DNA of 64,000 nucleotides from Oscillospiraceae bacterium (lineage in GTDB: Bacteria > Bacillota > Clostridia > Oscillospirales > Ruminococcaceae), in NCBI GenBank assembly GCA_031266415.1, contig JAISBB010000001.1:1-64000 (forward strand). The letters are read 5' to 3'. The position numbers and the translations under genes are program-made. The notes beneath the pieces are model-generated. The model was not told the DNA's origin, did no database searches, and worked only from the letters and a program-made list of their open reading frames with translations. Shown piece after piece: positions 27,768-35,386 of the stretch (position 1 is the first letter of the stretch; every line of letters begins with the position of its first letter).

Positions 27768-28850
27768 TTAGCCGGCTCCTTTTGAACAAATGTCTAAAAT
27801 CACAAGCGCAGCAACAGATTCAACAATCACAGCACTTCTTGCAACCGGCGAAACATCGTGTTTGCCGATAATTTTTATTTTTGCGTTTGATTTCGCCTCA
27901 AGATTAATCGTTTCTTGCTCTTTACCAATTGAAGGAATTGGTTTAAATGCAGTGTTAAATATTATGGGCATTCCAGTTGAAAGGCCACCACAAATCCCAC
28001 CAGAATTGTTTCTCTTACTTCTCACTTGTTGAATATCATCGTAAAATAGCGGGTCGTTCGCTTCGCTGCCTTTTAATGTTGTTATTTCAAACCCTTTCCC
28101 AAATTCAATTCCCTTCACTGCCGGAACTCCAAACATTACTAAAGCCAGCTTACTTTCAATTGAACCAAATAATGGGCTGCCAATTCCAGGCGGTACACCT
28201 AAAATAGCCGTTTCAATACAACCACCAACACTATCCCTTCCCATTTTAGCATTATTTAAAACCTTCAAATAATGCAGGCGCACGTTCTTGCAAATCACTG
28301 GCATTGCATCATATTGGAGGGATTCTTTTAATTCCTTCGAAAATACAGGCCCAAACACCACATCTTTATAGCTATATATACTACTCACATGACTATAGAT
28401 TTCGATCCCCCACTTTTCTTTAAGCAGTTGCCGCGCAACAGAACCAGCAAAAACCAAACCAACAGTCAACCTGGCAGAAAACTCCCCACCACCGCTTACA
28501 TTTTCCCCACAATATTTTACCCACGCTGGGTAATCTGAAGTAGAAGGCCTTGGAATGTAAGGTATATATCCCTCACCGTTTACGTCTTTATTGTGAAAAA
28601 TAGCTGTTAAATTTGCACCTGTAGTAATTCCATTTTTAATCCCGCAAAGCAACTCATAACAATCTGGTTCATTTCGCAATGAACAAAAATCATTTTGATT
28701 TGTTTTGCGGCGCAACAACTGTTTTTCTAATTCTGCGAAATTAATCTCAAAACCCGATTTAAATCCACTAACTGAAACACCAACAGCTTCTGCATGTGAC
28801 TCCCCAAACAAAGTAACTACAACATTTTCTCCGAAACTATTATACACCAT
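27768..28850 (-). CDS. aroC: chorismate synthase with altered active-site motif
   Basis: AroC converts EPSP to chorismate with reduced FMN. Family segments are clear: LFGESHAEAVG with the first active-site His (residue 19), RRKTNQND, GGGEFSARLT and the C-terminal GKHDVSPVARSA. In the normally conserved RPGHAD or RPSHAD motif, however, this protein reads RPSTSD (residues 101-106), so the second active-site His is replaced by Thr. The rest of the fold is intact, and the start overlaps the end of aroA by 11 bases. Confidence 0.93.
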   Translation of the reverse strand: MVYNSFGENVVVTLFGESHAEAVGVSVSGFKSGFEINFAELEKQLLRRKTNQNDFCSLRNEPDCYELLCGIKNGITTGANLTAIFHNKDVNGEGYIPYIPRPSTSDYPAWVKYCGENVSGGGEFSARLTVGLVFAGSVARQLLKEKWGIEIYSHVSSIYSYKDVVFGPVFSKELKESLQYDAMPVICKNVRLHYLKVLNNAKMGRDSVGGCIETAILGVPPGIGSPLFGSIESKLALVMFGVPAVKGIEFGKGFEITTLKGSEANDPLFYDDIQQVRSKRNNSGGICGGLSTGMPIIFNTAFKPIPSIGKEQETINLEAKSNAKIKIIGKHDVSPVARSAVIVESVAALVILDICSKGAG

Positions 28851-30099
28851 GAATCACACCGCCCAAACTCAAAAAATCAGCAATAAACGTGGGGTATGAT
28901 TTTTTTATGCAAGAAATATCATCTATTTCAATACCAGATTTGGCCTTCAGTGCTGCTATGCACATCGCCATCGCAATTCTGTGGTCACCAAAACTTTTTA
29001 CTTCCCCACCAACAAATCCTTCTTTTCCATTTATTAAAATTTCCCCATTTTCATATCTCGCATCGCCACCAATTGCTAACAAATTCATTACCATTGAAAC
29101 AACCCTATCAGATTCTTTGAATCTTAATCTTTCAACATTCATAATTTTAGTTTGTCCAGGTACTAGTGCACCCAAAACCATTAATATTGGGACCAAATCT
29201 GGAATATGTCTTGCATCTATACTGCACCCAGAAAGTACCGCTACAGAAAAACTAATTCCACTTTCACACACAATAGGAATCGCACCAAATTTTTCAAGTA
29301 ATCTCAAAATTGAAAAATCGCCCTGAACAGAGGGCGTTTTTATTTGAACTGTGATCTCAAACCCAAGAGCCGCAGCAACAAACCAAAAAGAAGCCGCAGA
29401 ATAATCGCATTCAACTTGAAATTTGGCCGGTGCATGATATTTTGCATTAGGTATATAAATTTCACATTCTTTAATTTGCACATCCACACCAAAACTTTTC
29501 ATAATCTCACTAGTTAACAATACATATGAAAGTGAACCTTGATTTACACTTATTTTAAGCTTCGAACTTTGCTCAAGCAGTGGGGAAGCCATCATAAGAC
29601 CACTAATAAACTGCGAAGTTGTTTGTTCTGCCACACAATATTCACCACTCTTAAGCTCTTCAGATACATAAACCGTGTTCTTTTCCATGCAACAGTTTAT
29701 TCCAAAATCTTTCAGGCGTTCTAACTCATTTTTTGACAAACGTTTTAAAAGCTGTTCGCCGCAAAGAAGCTTTGCCTTTATTTTCAAAGCTGCAAGGATA
29801 CAAATTAAAAATCTCAATGTACTTCCAGAGTTGGCACAATCAGCATTCAAAAATTCACAATTGATGGAAGAAGAAATAAATATTGAATTGGCACCCACTT
29901 TAACACCAATGCCCAAGGCATTCAACACATTTATTGTTGCTATTATATCGCTACACAAATTAATTCCCACAAGTTCACAGTTTTCAACACTCAAAGCCGC
30001 CAAAAATAAAGCACGGTGCAATATGCTTTTGGAAGGAGGAACTTTAACCGTTCCTTTTATTAATTCACTACCACTTACATTGAACAAATTCGTATCCAC
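28840..30099 (-). CDS. aroA: 3-phosphoshikimate 1-carboxyvinyltransferase (EPSP synthase)
   Basis: AroA joins shikimate-3-phosphate and PEP. Conserved parts are KVPPSKSILHRALFLAAL, NSGSTLRFL, PDLVPILMVLGAL (catalytic Asp), RLRFKESDRV and GDHRIAMAMCIAAL. The 419-residue length is normal. The start appears to be GTG at 30099 without a strong ribosome binding site. With the overlapping aroC it forms the last two steps of chorismate synthesis. The other shikimate genes are not in the window. Confidence 0.94.
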   Translation of the reverse strand: MDTNLFNVSGSELIKGTVKVPPSKSILHRALFLAALSVENCELVGINLCSDIIATINVLNALGIGVKVGANSIFISSSINCEFLNADCANSGSTLRFLICILAALKIKAKLLCGEQLLKRLSKNELERLKDFGINCCMEKNTVYVSEELKSGEYCVAEQTTSQFISGLMMASPLLEQSSKLKISVNQGSLSYVLLTSEIMKSFGVDVQIKECEIYIPNAKYHAPAKFQVECDYSAASFWFVAAALGFEITVQIKTPSVQGDFSILRLLEKFGAIPIVCESGISFSVAVLSGCSIDARHIPDLVPILMVLGALVPGQTKIMNVERLRFKESDRVVSMVMNLLAIGGDARYENGEILINGKEGFVGGEVKSFGDHRIAMAMCIAALKAKSGIEIDDISCIKKSYPTFIADFLSLGGVIHGV

Positions 30100-30233
30100 C
30101 CAACTTTTTCACAAACAAGCTACTTAATAATACCCAATTCCCTCCACTCGGACCTTGTGCACCACGAGCTGGTAATCCCTTTCTCCATCTCTTGGCCGCT
30201 GCATACCACAAACAGGCAAAAACACCGCCCAAG

Positions 30234-31496
30234 TTACATCGTGCCGATTTCACTTGACCCCATACTGCGAGATGGTGAAATTCCATGCAGTTTATACCAC
30301 ACTTGTATTTCATCTTTCAAGGTTACAAATTCCGGGTAGCCCTCAAAAAATTCAACTTTCTCTCTTCCTCGATTCTCTTTTAATTCCTCTTCGGTAATAA
30401 AACTAGCAAACGACTCAGCAAAATCGTCAAAAATATGTGTACTTGCATATAGCGAAACAAAATCTTTTCTGTGCCGCAAATAAAACAAATAACCGTTTTC
30501 ATCATTGTGCTTATCATCTAATGTATATTTATAAAACCGATCAACAAAAGCTTTCATGTAAGAATTCTCTCTAAACCTAATAGCAACATACGGTGGGACA
30601 TCTATCACCATCGCGGCGGAATTTTCTGAGGGTTCAGGTTCACTATAAAGCGAAATAAAATGCCCAAACTCATGGCACAACTGATACGCAAACATCGCTA
30701 AACTCTCTTCTTCTAAAACAGAAATATCCACACCCAACACAGAATATGCAACTTCATTTTCATTCGTTGTAACTTCAGTTGTAACTTCAGTTGTAACTTT
30801 AAAAGACCCACAGAAGGCAGGCGCAAAACCGTTGCCCTGCGGTAATAGTACATAATAAAAAGGAGAAAAATAATCTATGCATTGTAAAACCCTAGATGGC
30901 AATATCTTTTTTGTTTGTTCCCAAACCGTTTCTTGTTTCCTTTCCTTTTCTTCAGGGGAAATTAACACCGATTCAACTGGCTTAATAATTCCTATTTTTT
31001 CCGCTACCGCTGGTAGGTCTTCCCCTCGCTCTAAAGTTAAATTAGCATTTATTTTATATTGTGCATCTTCTTCCCATTCGCTATTAACATCCACCTGGGC
31101 ATTAATGTAAGTTTTCCACGTATCTGCAATTAATTCAATATCTTCCATTGGATTTTGTAAAAACTGATCTTTTGTATATTGGTTTAAAATATTACTTAAT
31201 TTCTTATTGCATTTGTTTAACTCGCGTTTTTCTAATTTACTTAAATTTTGTTTATTCTTTAATTTTACTATTGCCTCAACAACAACAGCAACTGCCTCGC
31301 GTTTTTCATTTGAGAGTTTTAATTCTCCAATAACCTGCTGCATCATTTCATCAACCATTAAGGAGACTGTTTGTTTTACCGCTGCTACCCGCATCAACCC
31401 TGGCGGATTTCTAAACACAAAAAACAAACTACCTGCAATCACAACAATTGCAGTAATCATACTCACGTAAACTGCCTTTTTTCTTCTTTTACTCAT
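30234..31496 (-). CDS. membrane-anchored putative zinc metallopeptidase
   Basis: The protein starts with a basic segment and one membrane helix (about residues 8-28), so the rest should be outside the cell. The second half has the zinc motif HEFGH (His275, Glu276, His279) and, 82 residues later, DDFAES with Glu361 as the likely third ligand, a gluzincin arrangement. The first half is a charged helical region and contains the short repeat VTTE. I do not recognise a named family. It is downstream of two other secreted protein genes in the same orientation but has its own weak promoter. Confidence 0.72.
   Translation of the reverse strand: MSKRRKKAVYVSMITAIVVIAGSLFFVFRNPPGLMRVAAVKQTVSLMVDEMMQQVIGELKLSNEKREAVAVVVEAIVKLKNKQNLSKLEKRELNKCNKKLSNILNQYTKDQFLQNPMEDIELIADTWKTYINAQVDVNSEWEEDAQYKINANLTLERGEDLPAVAEKIGIIKPVESVLISPEEKERKQETVWEQTKKILPSRVLQCIDYFSPFYYVLLPQGNGFAPAFCGSFKVTTEVTTEVTTNENEVAYSVLGVDISVLEEESLAMFAYQLCHEFGHFISLYSEPEPSENSAAMVIDVPPYVAIRFRENSYMKAFVDRFYKYTLDDKHNDENGYLFYLRHRKDFVSLYASTHIFDDFAESFASFITEEELKENRGREKVEFFEGYPEFVTLKDEIQVWYKLHGISPSRSMGSSEIGTM
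30766..30800 (-). repeat. 12-bp tandem repeat inside the metallopeptidase gene
   Basis: The unit GTTGTAACTTCA occurs almost three times in a row (plus-strand reading). It encodes repeated Val-Thr-Thr-Glu. The period is a multiple of three, so copy-number change would keep the frame. Confidence 0.8.
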
Positions 31497-31617
31497 AAAA
31501 CTCCCTTTTTTATTTTCTCATTTTCATTAAGGAATTAAACTCTTTCCGTCTATATTTAAGACATTTTTACAAGAGCAAACACAAGGCTCTCAAAAATTTA
31601 CATGTTTTCATAGCTAA

Positions 31618-31646
31618 ATTGTGGCACAGCGAACCCTCAATGTCAA
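31618..31646 (-). promoter_or_regulatory. possible promoter of the metallopeptidase gene
   Basis: On the minus strand a perfect TTGACA (31646-31641) is followed after 17 bases by CACAAT (31623-31618), a weak -10 box. It lies about 120 bases upstream of the start codon. Confidence 0.45.
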
Positions 31647-31738
31647 TAGTTGAAAACAAAACATTGTTTTGTGAGCTTGTAATCCCCATCCCACCCCAGA
31701 GGCCAAAGCACGAAATTCCTGGAATTGGCAGAAACAAA

Positions 31739-31755
31739 GGCCCCTAAATGGGACC
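31739..31755 (-). terminator. possible terminator of the secreted protease operon
   Basis: On the minus strand GGTCCC, a five-base loop and GGGGCC form a short stem with one G-T pair, followed by TTTGTTT. It lies about 280 bases after the secreted protein gene, so the assignment is weak. Confidence 0.35.
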
Positions 31756-32032
31756 TGATTATTGTCTAAATATCTATTGTATTTATTTGTATGCTGACTG
31801 GCAATGTAAAATAACAAATGAGCAAATCACCTGCCTGTTTGACCACTTGAGGTAATATACGGATAGAATAAGGTGGTATTGAGCCAAAAAGCTCCAGTTA
31901 AGTCAGTTTCAAGCCTTTCTTTACCTTCATTCCCATACCCCCAAAGATTACAAGAACAAATCAAGATCTTTGCCAATTAAAAAGTTAGCATAGCCTATCC
32001 ACAAAGAAGGTGGGTTCTTTTTTTAACTAGAC

Positions 32033-32821
32033 CTAACAATACCAGCACCCAGCCTGCGCTACTCTCTGATTCCCTTCCCAGTAATCATTTAGAACAGTAG
32101 CTAATGGATAAAATTTTTTTGCTTCATACCCCGGCAACGGACGGGAAAACCAAATTTGCGCAGCATCTAAAGACGCATCGCCGGATGGCGTTGCAATGTA
32201 CCCAGAGGCACGATGCTCAATATTAATAAGAATTATTTTTGAACTTTGATTACTTTCCTGAAAAAAATCAAAATTCAGTTGAGGATCTCCCTCACGCACA
32301 AATTTTTCCATCTCTTCTACATCTACATTATAAGGTACCGGTGACAAGGTATTCGTAAACCGTAGTTCCTTAACCTCCTTCACATCTGGCTTCACCTTGT
32401 CTTTTAATATATCTTCCAAGGTCCTTCCATTTGCTGCTAGCCTTATGTAGAACGATGCTACTTCTTGTCCTTCAGGGAGTTCACATCCTTCAGGGAGTTT
32501 AAATTCTACAGGGACAAGTAAATTGAATTCCGTCTCGTCCTGTATAACCATGTTAACATTTATCGTCTGATCTTCTTGGGCAACTGGTGGCCTGCTCTCC
32601 ACAATTCTACGAAACACCATTATTTGGCTATTCCATCCATCCTTCAATTTCAGAAACTGTGTCGCAAGTTGTAAATTTAATGCCTCACTAAGCCACTCGC
32701 CTGGCTCAACATTTGATAAATATACACTATCTTTTGTTTGCCTACTCATACAAACACCAACAGAAACAAAACTACTCACCGCCACCAAAGTTGATATTAA
32801 TCTTACTAAAAACTTATTCAT
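32033..32821 (-). CDS. secreted protein of unknown function
   Basis: I do not recognise this protein. From the ATG at 32821 (AAAGGA eight bases upstream) it begins MNKFLVRLISTLVAVSSF, a clear signal peptide, with a possible cut near VGVCMS. If the Cys is used it could be lipid-anchored, but the lipobox is poor. The mature part is 230-240 residues, acidic and without catalytic motifs, and ends in the unusual CWYC. It contains a duplicated LPEG segment. It lies 43 bases after the papain-like protease gene, so the two are probably one operon. A role as an inhibitor, substrate or partner of the protease is inference. Confidence 0.65.
   Translation of the reverse strand: MNKFLVRLISTLVAVSSFVSVGVCMSRQTKDSVYLSNVEPGEWLSEALNLQLATQFLKLKDGWNSQIMVFRRIVESRPPVAQEDQTINVNMVIQDETEFNLLVPVEFKLPEGCELPEGQEVASFYIRLAANGRTLEDILKDKVKPDVKEVKELRFTNTLSPVPYNVDVEEMEKFVREGDPQLNFDFFQESNQSSKIILINIEHRASGYIATPSGDASLDAAQIWFSRPLPGYEAKKFYPLATVLNDYWEGNQRVAQAGCWYC
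32468..32503 (-). repeat. 18-bp tandem duplication in the secreted protein gene
   Basis: TCCTTCAGGGAGTT is repeated at an 18-base period (from 32468 and from 32486). It encodes a doubled Leu-Pro-Glu-Gly motif and keeps the frame. Confidence 0.7.
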
Positions 32822-32864
32822 AAAAAACATCCTTTCTATTATTTTGATTCTTAATTTTAGATAA

Positions 32865-34217
32865 TCAATAGGAATCAAATGTCGTGTATTGATAAAAGTC
32901 CCAGCTATGCCCACTACCTATATTACATTTTGAACCAGGAATTGCCAAATTAATTTTAAAGTCATTACCCCAAGGATTATACCCATACAGGAACTTAATG
33001 GAAAAAGGACCGGCAGAAATATCCTCTGCTCCGTATACAACACAAGCATGTGCTACCGGCCCCGCAGGGTTTTTAAACGAAGCAACTACCATTCGCCTGT
33101 TGTTAAAAACTTCATTGTAAATGGCCTCAAAAGCATCTTTTACAGCTGCTTTGTTTGCCGGATCTACAGACGTGCTTACAGTTGATATCCCACCAATAGT
33201 ACGCATCACAACGTTTACAGCATCGCCATTTTCTCCGACAAACATTCGCTGACACATAGGCGATAATGCTCCCCATGTATTCGTTAATTTCGCATTATCC
33301 GCCGCGCCAATTAAACAATTGAACAGGAAGAGCTGCCTTATTGGGGAAACATTCCCAAGAACATCTCTCAAGAGCGCGGGACCTAAACAGCAAGTACATA
33401 ACGGGGGGGTCCCAATCGCCGCTGTGCCAGGTGGGGGGGCCGGGATGGCGAGGCCTTCTGCAAGATCAACTGGAACCCCGGGGGGGGCCAGTTGACCGTC
33501 GGGGGGTCGGTCACCGCCAAGACCCGCGGGAGGGTTTGCGTCGGTCCGCCCACCTGCCTCTTCCACGTCATCGCCGCCATCTTCCGGCTGCTCGGCGGGA
33601 GCTGCGCCGGCAGCTGCCAACAAAACCGGGCAGCTGGTCGAGAAATGGGTGCTCTGGTCGCTCAAAAAATCGTGAATTTTTTCCAGAAGCTCTGTTTGAA
33701 CAGCGTCTGATGCCTTATAGTACTCCTCGAGTGTGACCATTGCCGACCTGTGTAAAAAAACATTCTCCATAAATTTTTCGTCGTAATTCCAGATGTCTGG
33801 GCCCACGGCTTGGCCAGCCCCAGCAGCAGCGCCAGCAGGTCTGTTAATCGGGGTCCCGAGGGACGGGAGGACGCCCGGCAGTTCGAAAAATGCCCGCAAA
33901 GCAACAACGTCCTGGTTGCCGTCAGCTATTCTTTTTCGCAGTATATCCCATAACACTATTTTAGAGCACGTGACTGCGCACCACGGCACATTTCCCTGTT
34001 CTAAAAACCAACGATTTGTTCCATTTCTGTAATCGCTCCATGGATCATAACTGGTTACTCTTTTCTCTGCGAGTGTAATGTTAGAAAAAATGGATACAAA
34101 ACAAAAAAGACTTAATAGCAGCGCGCAAATCTTCCTCTTTGCCTGCTTAAAAATTTGAATATTCATAATATTTCTATTTAATTTTCTCAATTTTACCATG
34201 CTTGACTTGAATTTCAT
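32865..34217 (-). CDS. secreted papain-like cysteine peptidase with a GC-rich low-complexity insert
   Basis: After a basic start and a signal peptide (about residues 27-50, ending TLA), the protein shows QGNVPWC (Gln74, Cys80), VAHACVVYG (His390) and YGYNPWG (Asn414). This spacing matches the Cys-His-Asn triad and oxyanion Gln of papain-like peptidases of the C39/C70 kind. Two inserts interrupt the fold: an Ala/Gly-rich one at about residues 113-142 and a large Pro/Gly/Ala/Asp-rich one at about 200-280. Both are far more GC-rich than the genome around them and the second has C-runs of 6-8 on the coding strand. AAGGGGG lies four bases before the ATG. Downstream ATGs at 34199 and 34166 are also possible. 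Confidence 0.75.
   Translation of the reverse strand: MKFKSSMVKLRKLNRNIMNIQIFKQAKRKICALLLSLFCFVSIFSNITLAEKRVTSYDPWSDYRNGTNRWFLEQGNVPWCAVTCSKIVLWDILRKRIADGNQDVVALRAFFELPGVLPSLGTPINRPAGAAAGAGQAVGPDIWNYDEKFMENVFLHRSAMVTLEEYYKASDAVQTELLEKIHDFLSDQSTHFSTSCPVLLAAAGAAPAEQPEDGGDDVEEAGGRTDANPPAGLGGDRPPDGQLAPPGVPVDLAEGLAIPAPPPGTAAIGTPPLCTCCLGPALLRDVLGNVSPIRQLFLFNCLIGAADNAKLTNTWGALSPMCQRMFVGENGDAVNVVMRTIGGISTVSTSVDPANKAAVKDAFEAIYNEVFNNRRMVVASFKNPAGPVAHACVVYGAEDISAGPFSIKFLYGYNPWGNDFKINLAIPGSKCNIGSGHSWDFYQYTTFDSY
33378..33617 (-). other. GC-rich insert with G/C homopolymer tracts
   Basis: This part of the papain-like gene codes for about 80 residues rich in Pro, Gly, Ala and Asp. On the plus strand it contains runs of G at 33403-33409 (7), 33433-33439 (7), 33480-33487 (8) and 33501-33506 (6). 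A second, smaller GC-rich patch lies at 33791-33879. Nothing else in the window has this composition. Confidence 0.8.
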
Positions 34218-34493: not shown

Positions 34494-35360
34494 TTACGCC
34501 CCTCTTTCTAAAGAAAAACTAATCAAAAAACCACAAACGTACAGTGCCGCAAAAAGAATAAATGCATTTATCGTGCCATAGTAAAATTCGCTTCCATGAA
34601 AATTTCCAAACGCCGGGAATATGTAAAATGGAACCACAACCAAACAACTGAAAAATATGGCCAAAAGGCTAGCAACAATATGTGTTTTAACAAATCCACG
34701 CGTGTTTGTATTAAATGCCAACAAAGTTGCTTGTGAATATAAAGCTCTCATTATAAATACTAAGGCAAAAATTGCAATAATATGTTCGCTTATATAATAT
34801 ATTGTCACATAGGCATCAAGCACTTGCATTACCTTTGCAATGGCCCACAATATCGGCAGAACTTGCACTAATTTCATAAGATTCGTTTTCAACATTGCAT
34901 GTTGCCCCATTAAAAAAAGTACCCCTTGAATAATAAAAACAATCCCAGAAACAAGACCAAAGTACTGCCGAATAGTCCCCATACTGGAACCAGGAAATAA
35001 CTGAAACGAAACATTTGCAATGCCAGAAGGTAAAAACCCAACTATTTGCTCTTTGTGTTTTAAAAAATCATAAAGAAAAAAAACACCAAACAAAACTGAG
35101 ACAATGGCAAAAATAATTCCCCACTTTTTTGAAAACTTTATTTCCACAGATGAGTCATCGTTCGTTGAATAGAAAAGAACAAAAACAGCACCAACAGAAC
35201 CAATAATTAACAGACTTAGATTAAAAATCGTGGTCCAAATATTTTCCACACCATAAAATCCTGTCTGCGGGTTCACAAAAGCTGAAACAAAAAAACAACG
35301 CACACCAGTTATTATTGTAATAAAAACGGAAAAAATTACAATGTGTTTAGTTTTCAACAA
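34494..35360 (-). CDS. polytopic membrane protein, unknown function
   Basis: I do not recognise this 289-residue protein. It has about eight hydrophobic segments with short charged loops and no catalytic motif. I chose the TTG at 35360 because a perfect AAGGAGG lies eight bases upstream. An upstream in-frame GTG at 35378 would lie before that site. It is in the same orientation as the secreted protease genes but separated from them by a promoter region, and it is divergent from the M16 peptidases. Confidence 0.65.
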   Translation of the reverse strand: MLKTKHIVIFSVFITIITGVRCFFVSAFVNPQTGFYGVENIWTTIFNLSLLIIGSVGAVFVLFYSTNDDSSVEIKFSKKWGIIFAIVSVLFGVFFLYDFLKHKEQIVGFLPSGIANVSFQLFPGSSMGTIRQYFGLVSGIVFIIQGVLFLMGQHAMLKTNLMKLVQVLPILWAIAKVMQVLDAYVTIYYISEHIIAIFALVFIMRALYSQATLLAFNTNTRGFVKTHIVASLLAIFFSCLVVVPFYIFPAFGNFHGSEFYYGTINAFILFAALYVCGFLISFSLERGA

Positions 35361-35386
35361 ACATAATACCTCCTTCACAATAACAG

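Follow-up and report, generated by a model that had tools for sequence, protein, structure and literature searches.

The gene at positions 32865–34217 (minus strand) encodes a 450-residue secreted protein that is species-specific and an orphan across all collections searched. We consider the best explanation, held with somewhat better than even confidence, to be a secreted and possibly peptidase-type protein that carries a fast-evolving GC-rich linker, the slipped-strand switches of the lineage lying in other genes. The poly-G families found across the genus are a more interesting result than this gene.

The window analyzed here is the whole 64-kb stretch at the start of contig 4 of a draft genome of 736 kb (seven contigs, 98% complete), and the genus comprises three other genomes of 0.8–0.9 Mb. 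The open reading frame begins with an ATG that has a Shine-Dalgarno-like AAGGGGG immediately 5′ of it. Inspection and hydropathy place a signal peptide region at approximately residues 18–50 (34068–34166, minus strand), where Lys/Arg residues are followed by a hydrophobic stretch, and this prediction supports well the secretion proposed in the initial annotation. The protein had no relative in the three other genomes of the genus or among 60 relatives, and 394 genomes of the order yielded just two weak matches of 62–126 residues with internal stops. No relative was found in GTDB contigs, IMG/VR, phages or plasmids, and searches of Pfam, NCBIfam and the PDB returned noise alone, for example a weak T4 gp9-like match.

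The target gene is part of a same-strand run that contains two further open reading frames. The next gene (32033–32830, minus strand) encodes a secreted-type protein that has no Pfam match; positions 32468–32514 within it hold an 18-base tandem repeat of 2.6 copies, encoding a repeated LPEG-like motif. The other (30234–31496, minus strand) encodes a protein with an HExxH metallopeptidase motif (HEFGH ... DFAESFA), which matches Pfam Peptidase_Mx with an E-value of 1.5e-5 and 25 bits, just below the cut-off of 27. At 27768–34217, aroC, aroA and three secreted-type genes are found between trpS and the gene at 34494–35378. In the sister genome G001, trpS directly adjoins the orthologue of 34494–35378, with aroC, aroA and all three secreted genes missing from this spot.

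The target protein is possibly a papain-like cysteine peptidase, a candidate by the order of its motifs. By inspection, the candidate catalytic Cys80 (NVPWCAVTCSKIVL) is encoded at 33978–33980, the candidate catalytic His390 (GPVAHACVVYG) at 33048–33050, and the candidate Asn414 (LYGYNPWGNDF) at 32976–32978, all on the minus strand. Together with Gln74, these residues stand in the translation exactly where the initial annotation had put them, in papain-like order; the protein is an orphan, which leaves no conservation to compare. The Gln-Cys-His-Asn order, with WC and NPW beside the active residues, presumably makes the protein resemble the papain-like families of clan CA (C70/AvrRpt2-like, C39-like and C1), and the target is likewise secreted. 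It differs from these peptidases in three ways: it matched no profile under any of the thresholds applied, it has no solved relative in the PDB, and its Cys-His spacing of 300 residues holds the GC-rich linker. Neither the whole protein nor the two catalytic pieces searched alone matched a clan CA profile in Pfam or NCBIfam, and the PDB gave no convincing match to either. AlphaFold2 run without an alignment gave a mean pLDDT of 35. The residue order thus fits the earlier reading of a papain-like protease, but Pfam, NCBIfam and PDB matches are absent; with no relative in any of the collections searched, the label is one of motif order.

Between the Cys80 and His390 codons lies a strongly GC-rich segment of ~250 bases and ~70% GC, in a window of 36% GC, as the initial annotation had described. 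Its GC content peaks at 0.73 per 150 bases, the maximum of the window (mean 0.362, SD 0.058). By composition, the insert spans codons 193–276 (33390–33641, minus strand; GC 0.69) and is rich in Pro, Gly, Ala, Asp and Glu. The GC scan also recovered the second, weaker patch that had been reported, at about 33711–34004 on the minus strand (ends approximate), with a peak of 0.63 per 150 bases. The insert is probably a long and, we infer, disordered linker joining the Cys80 side of the protein to the His390/Asn414 side. A shift of the true frame within the insert was considered, given a GC1 close to 1.0 and ~90 open codons in frame +1. It was rejected because translation in frame 0 gives an ordinary linker sequence and the two halves of the gene share a single open reading frame in frame 0.

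Two other origins had been raised for this segment. A module acquired horizontally from a GC-richer genome would account for the sharp contrast in GC between the insert and the rest of the gene. However, GC1 is about 0.93–0.95 and GC3 about 0.6, and with GC1 so far above GC3, much of the GC content reflects the choice of amino acids rather than foreign codon use. In addition, the insert DNA has only chance-size matches in the genus, and protein relatives are absent from every collection searched. The donor and cassette search of the insert DNA found no source, its best match being 27 nt in G001 between valS and an ABC transporter. Horizontal acquisition was left without support, and we regard it as improbable. 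An assembly error or chimera is more improbable still: the genome is a draft in seven contigs and some sequencing technologies err at homopolymers, but the frame stays open across all four homopolymer runs, uniting two halves of one protein, and other secreted genes of the genome hold similar GC-rich segments.

The four runs, which read as G on the plus strand and as C on the coding minus strand, were all found in the insert with the lengths first described. Specifically, C7 runs occupy 33403–33409 (Thr-Pro-Pro codons) and 33433–33439 (Ala-Pro-Pro codons), a C8 run occupies 33480–33487 (Ala-Pro-Pro codons), and a C6 run occupies 33501–33506 (Pro-Pro codons). When the amino acids are kept fixed and codons are drawn at the frequencies seen in the other GC-rich genes of this genome, the expected number of runs of at least 6 is 1.4; under this null, the probability of four or more such runs is 0.03 and that of a run of at least 8 is 0.20. 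Permuting synonymous codons inside the insert gave P = 0.08 for four runs, and a first-order Markov model of the insert gave P = 0.04 for four runs and 0.27 for a run of 8. The four runs therefore only marginally exceed chance given the composition, and are a hint rather than a signal. They would mostly arise because consecutive prolines are encoded here by GC-rich codons, with no dedicated switch.

The whole genome contains 23 G/C runs of at least 7. The 11 runs of exactly 7 comprise two in the target gene, seven in housekeeping-type genes (holB, ileS, murC, valS, lysS, gatA and pyrF, named by inspection of their translations and apparently essential) and two elsewhere. Since runs of 7 are tolerated in apparently essential genes, 7 is no switch length in this genome. 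None of the 12 runs of at least 8 falls inside a housekeeping-type gene (Fisher P = 0.001, with the threshold picked after seeing the data), and the C8 run at 33480–33487 is the sole run of the target in this length class. Loss of mismatch repair was considered and rejected, as MutS and MutL are intact.

Longer tracts at a defined site are found in other secreted genes of the genus. Contig C6 of this genome (G000) encodes, at positions 77100–83700, a tandem family of secreted Cys-rich proteins in which a G tract occupies a homologous position separating the signal peptide from the body of the protein. In two copies, a G10 tract (C6:82149 and C6:83342) keeps signal peptide and body in one frame; in a third, a G12 tract (C6:77962) shifts the body into a frame other than that of the signal peptide, and a fourth copy has no tract. 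More signal-peptide fragments of this family are present on C6 at 81020–81130, 99098–99196 and 104283–104396, the last at the contig end. The sister species G002 has a secreted multigene family, unrelated to the C6 family and found at 13 places in its genome, with tracts directly behind the signal peptide at C2:4644, C13:27861, C13:30893 and C21:7718; tracts of C11 and G10 are in frame, and tracts of G11 and G9 are out of frame. These in-frame and out-of-frame paralogues make a good in silico case that the genus has contingency loci. The likely slipped-strand switches of the lineage would be the G9–G12 tracts that directly follow the signal peptide in its families of secreted proteins.

Long G tracts are concentrated in this lineage. 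The genus has 23 distinct tracts of at least 9 G in ~3.2 Mb, compared with 15 in ~34 Mb for 15 other genomes of the family (two of these 15 tracts lie at or beside a contig end), corresponding to a ~16-fold higher density. Two further tracts occupy other positions. In G001, a G20 tract (C1:108) precedes the signal peptide at the head of a secreted-type protein of 997 residues that is GC-rich. In G000, a G9 tract (C5:70226) immediately precedes the apparent start of gatA, at the place expected for a ribosome-binding site; should the tract vary in length, it could affect how strongly the gene is translated.

We weighed these observations against the proposal that the target gene is itself phase-variable, in which slipped-strand events at C8, or at one of the runs beside it, would toggle between the 450-residue protein and a product of 250–307 residues lacking His390 and Asn414. 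Addition or loss of one base in any of the four runs does yield products of 250–307 residues that end before His390, so the truncation anticipated in the initial annotation holds in the translation. The convincing contingency loci of the genus are among secreted genes, the C8 length class is unseen inside housekeeping genes, and four runs within one insert are slightly above chance, all of which favor the proposal. Tracts of comparable length vary or act elsewhere: C runs of 5–6 reportedly differ between meningococcal strains (PMC5084427), and a mycoplasma methylase is controlled by a G8 tract (PMC5476646). Like the contingency loci of Neisseria and Campylobacter (PMC5084427, PMC2831843), the target is a secreted-protein gene that slippage would truncate; unlike them, its runs are short, placed mid-gene in GC-rich Pro codons, and marginally above chance.

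Within the genome, the C6 family at 77–84 kb and the target both encode secreted proteins in which a GC-rich segment lies beside a less GC-rich part. However, the two have no sequence similarity, and the G10–G12 tracts of the C6 family are directly behind the signal peptide and come with in-frame and out-of-frame copies, unlike the mid-gene C tracts of the target. Composition predicts nearly as many runs as are present, and mismatch repair is intact. Because the runs are near chance, runs of 7 occur in apparently essential genes, and mismatch repair is present, the target runs are weak switch candidates, and we think it unlikely that the gene is phase-variable. The idea of phase variation finds support at the other secreted loci of the genome (G10/G10/G12) and fares poorly at the target, whose runs are internal, short and mostly in Pro-Pro codons.

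The favored reading, a fast-evolving linker, draws on the C6 family. Pairwise identity in this family is 0.16–0.23 where GC is 0.56–0.62, elevated at all three codon positions, and the better conserved part has a GC of 0.35–0.48. Because the hypervariable stretches of these proteins are also the GC-rich ones, the target insert is read the same way, which suggests that it is one of a class of GC-rich linkers in secreted proteins, with fast evolution inferred. The high GC of this class may stem from the choice of amino acids, from biased gene conversion or from some other process. In the part of the genome sampled (the window, contig C6 and the stretches around the tracts), strongly GC-rich open reading frames nearly all encode secreted or surface proteins, by crude signal-peptide calls. 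Two large surface-type proteins with LPAGG-like C-terminal anchors also have a GC-rich middle: one at C4:149211–151808, with G10 and G8 runs in frame, and one at C5:5965–8295, which has no relative in the genus.

A more speculative extension, to which we give a low probability, is targeted diversification, in which some process repeatedly rewrites the hypervariable parts of secreted proteins in this reduced genome, making them GC-rich at all codon positions, beside poly-G switching at the heads of multigene families. Such a process could be biased gene conversion or some other mechanism of mutagenesis or recombination, and the target would be among the genes it has shaped. Gene conversion between the GC-rich segments themselves was considered and rejected, as no DNA is shared among the sampled loci.

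The target gene itself, which encodes a secreted orphan bearing a GC-rich linker, is of little import. Our literature searches found no description of phase variation in small-genome Oscillospiraceae. That these bacteria keep mismatch repair yet carry poly-G heads on families of secreted proteins, some copies in frame and others out of frame, would point to phase variation, and high GC that goes together with hypervariability may serve as a simple marker of such genes in metagenome-assembled genomes.
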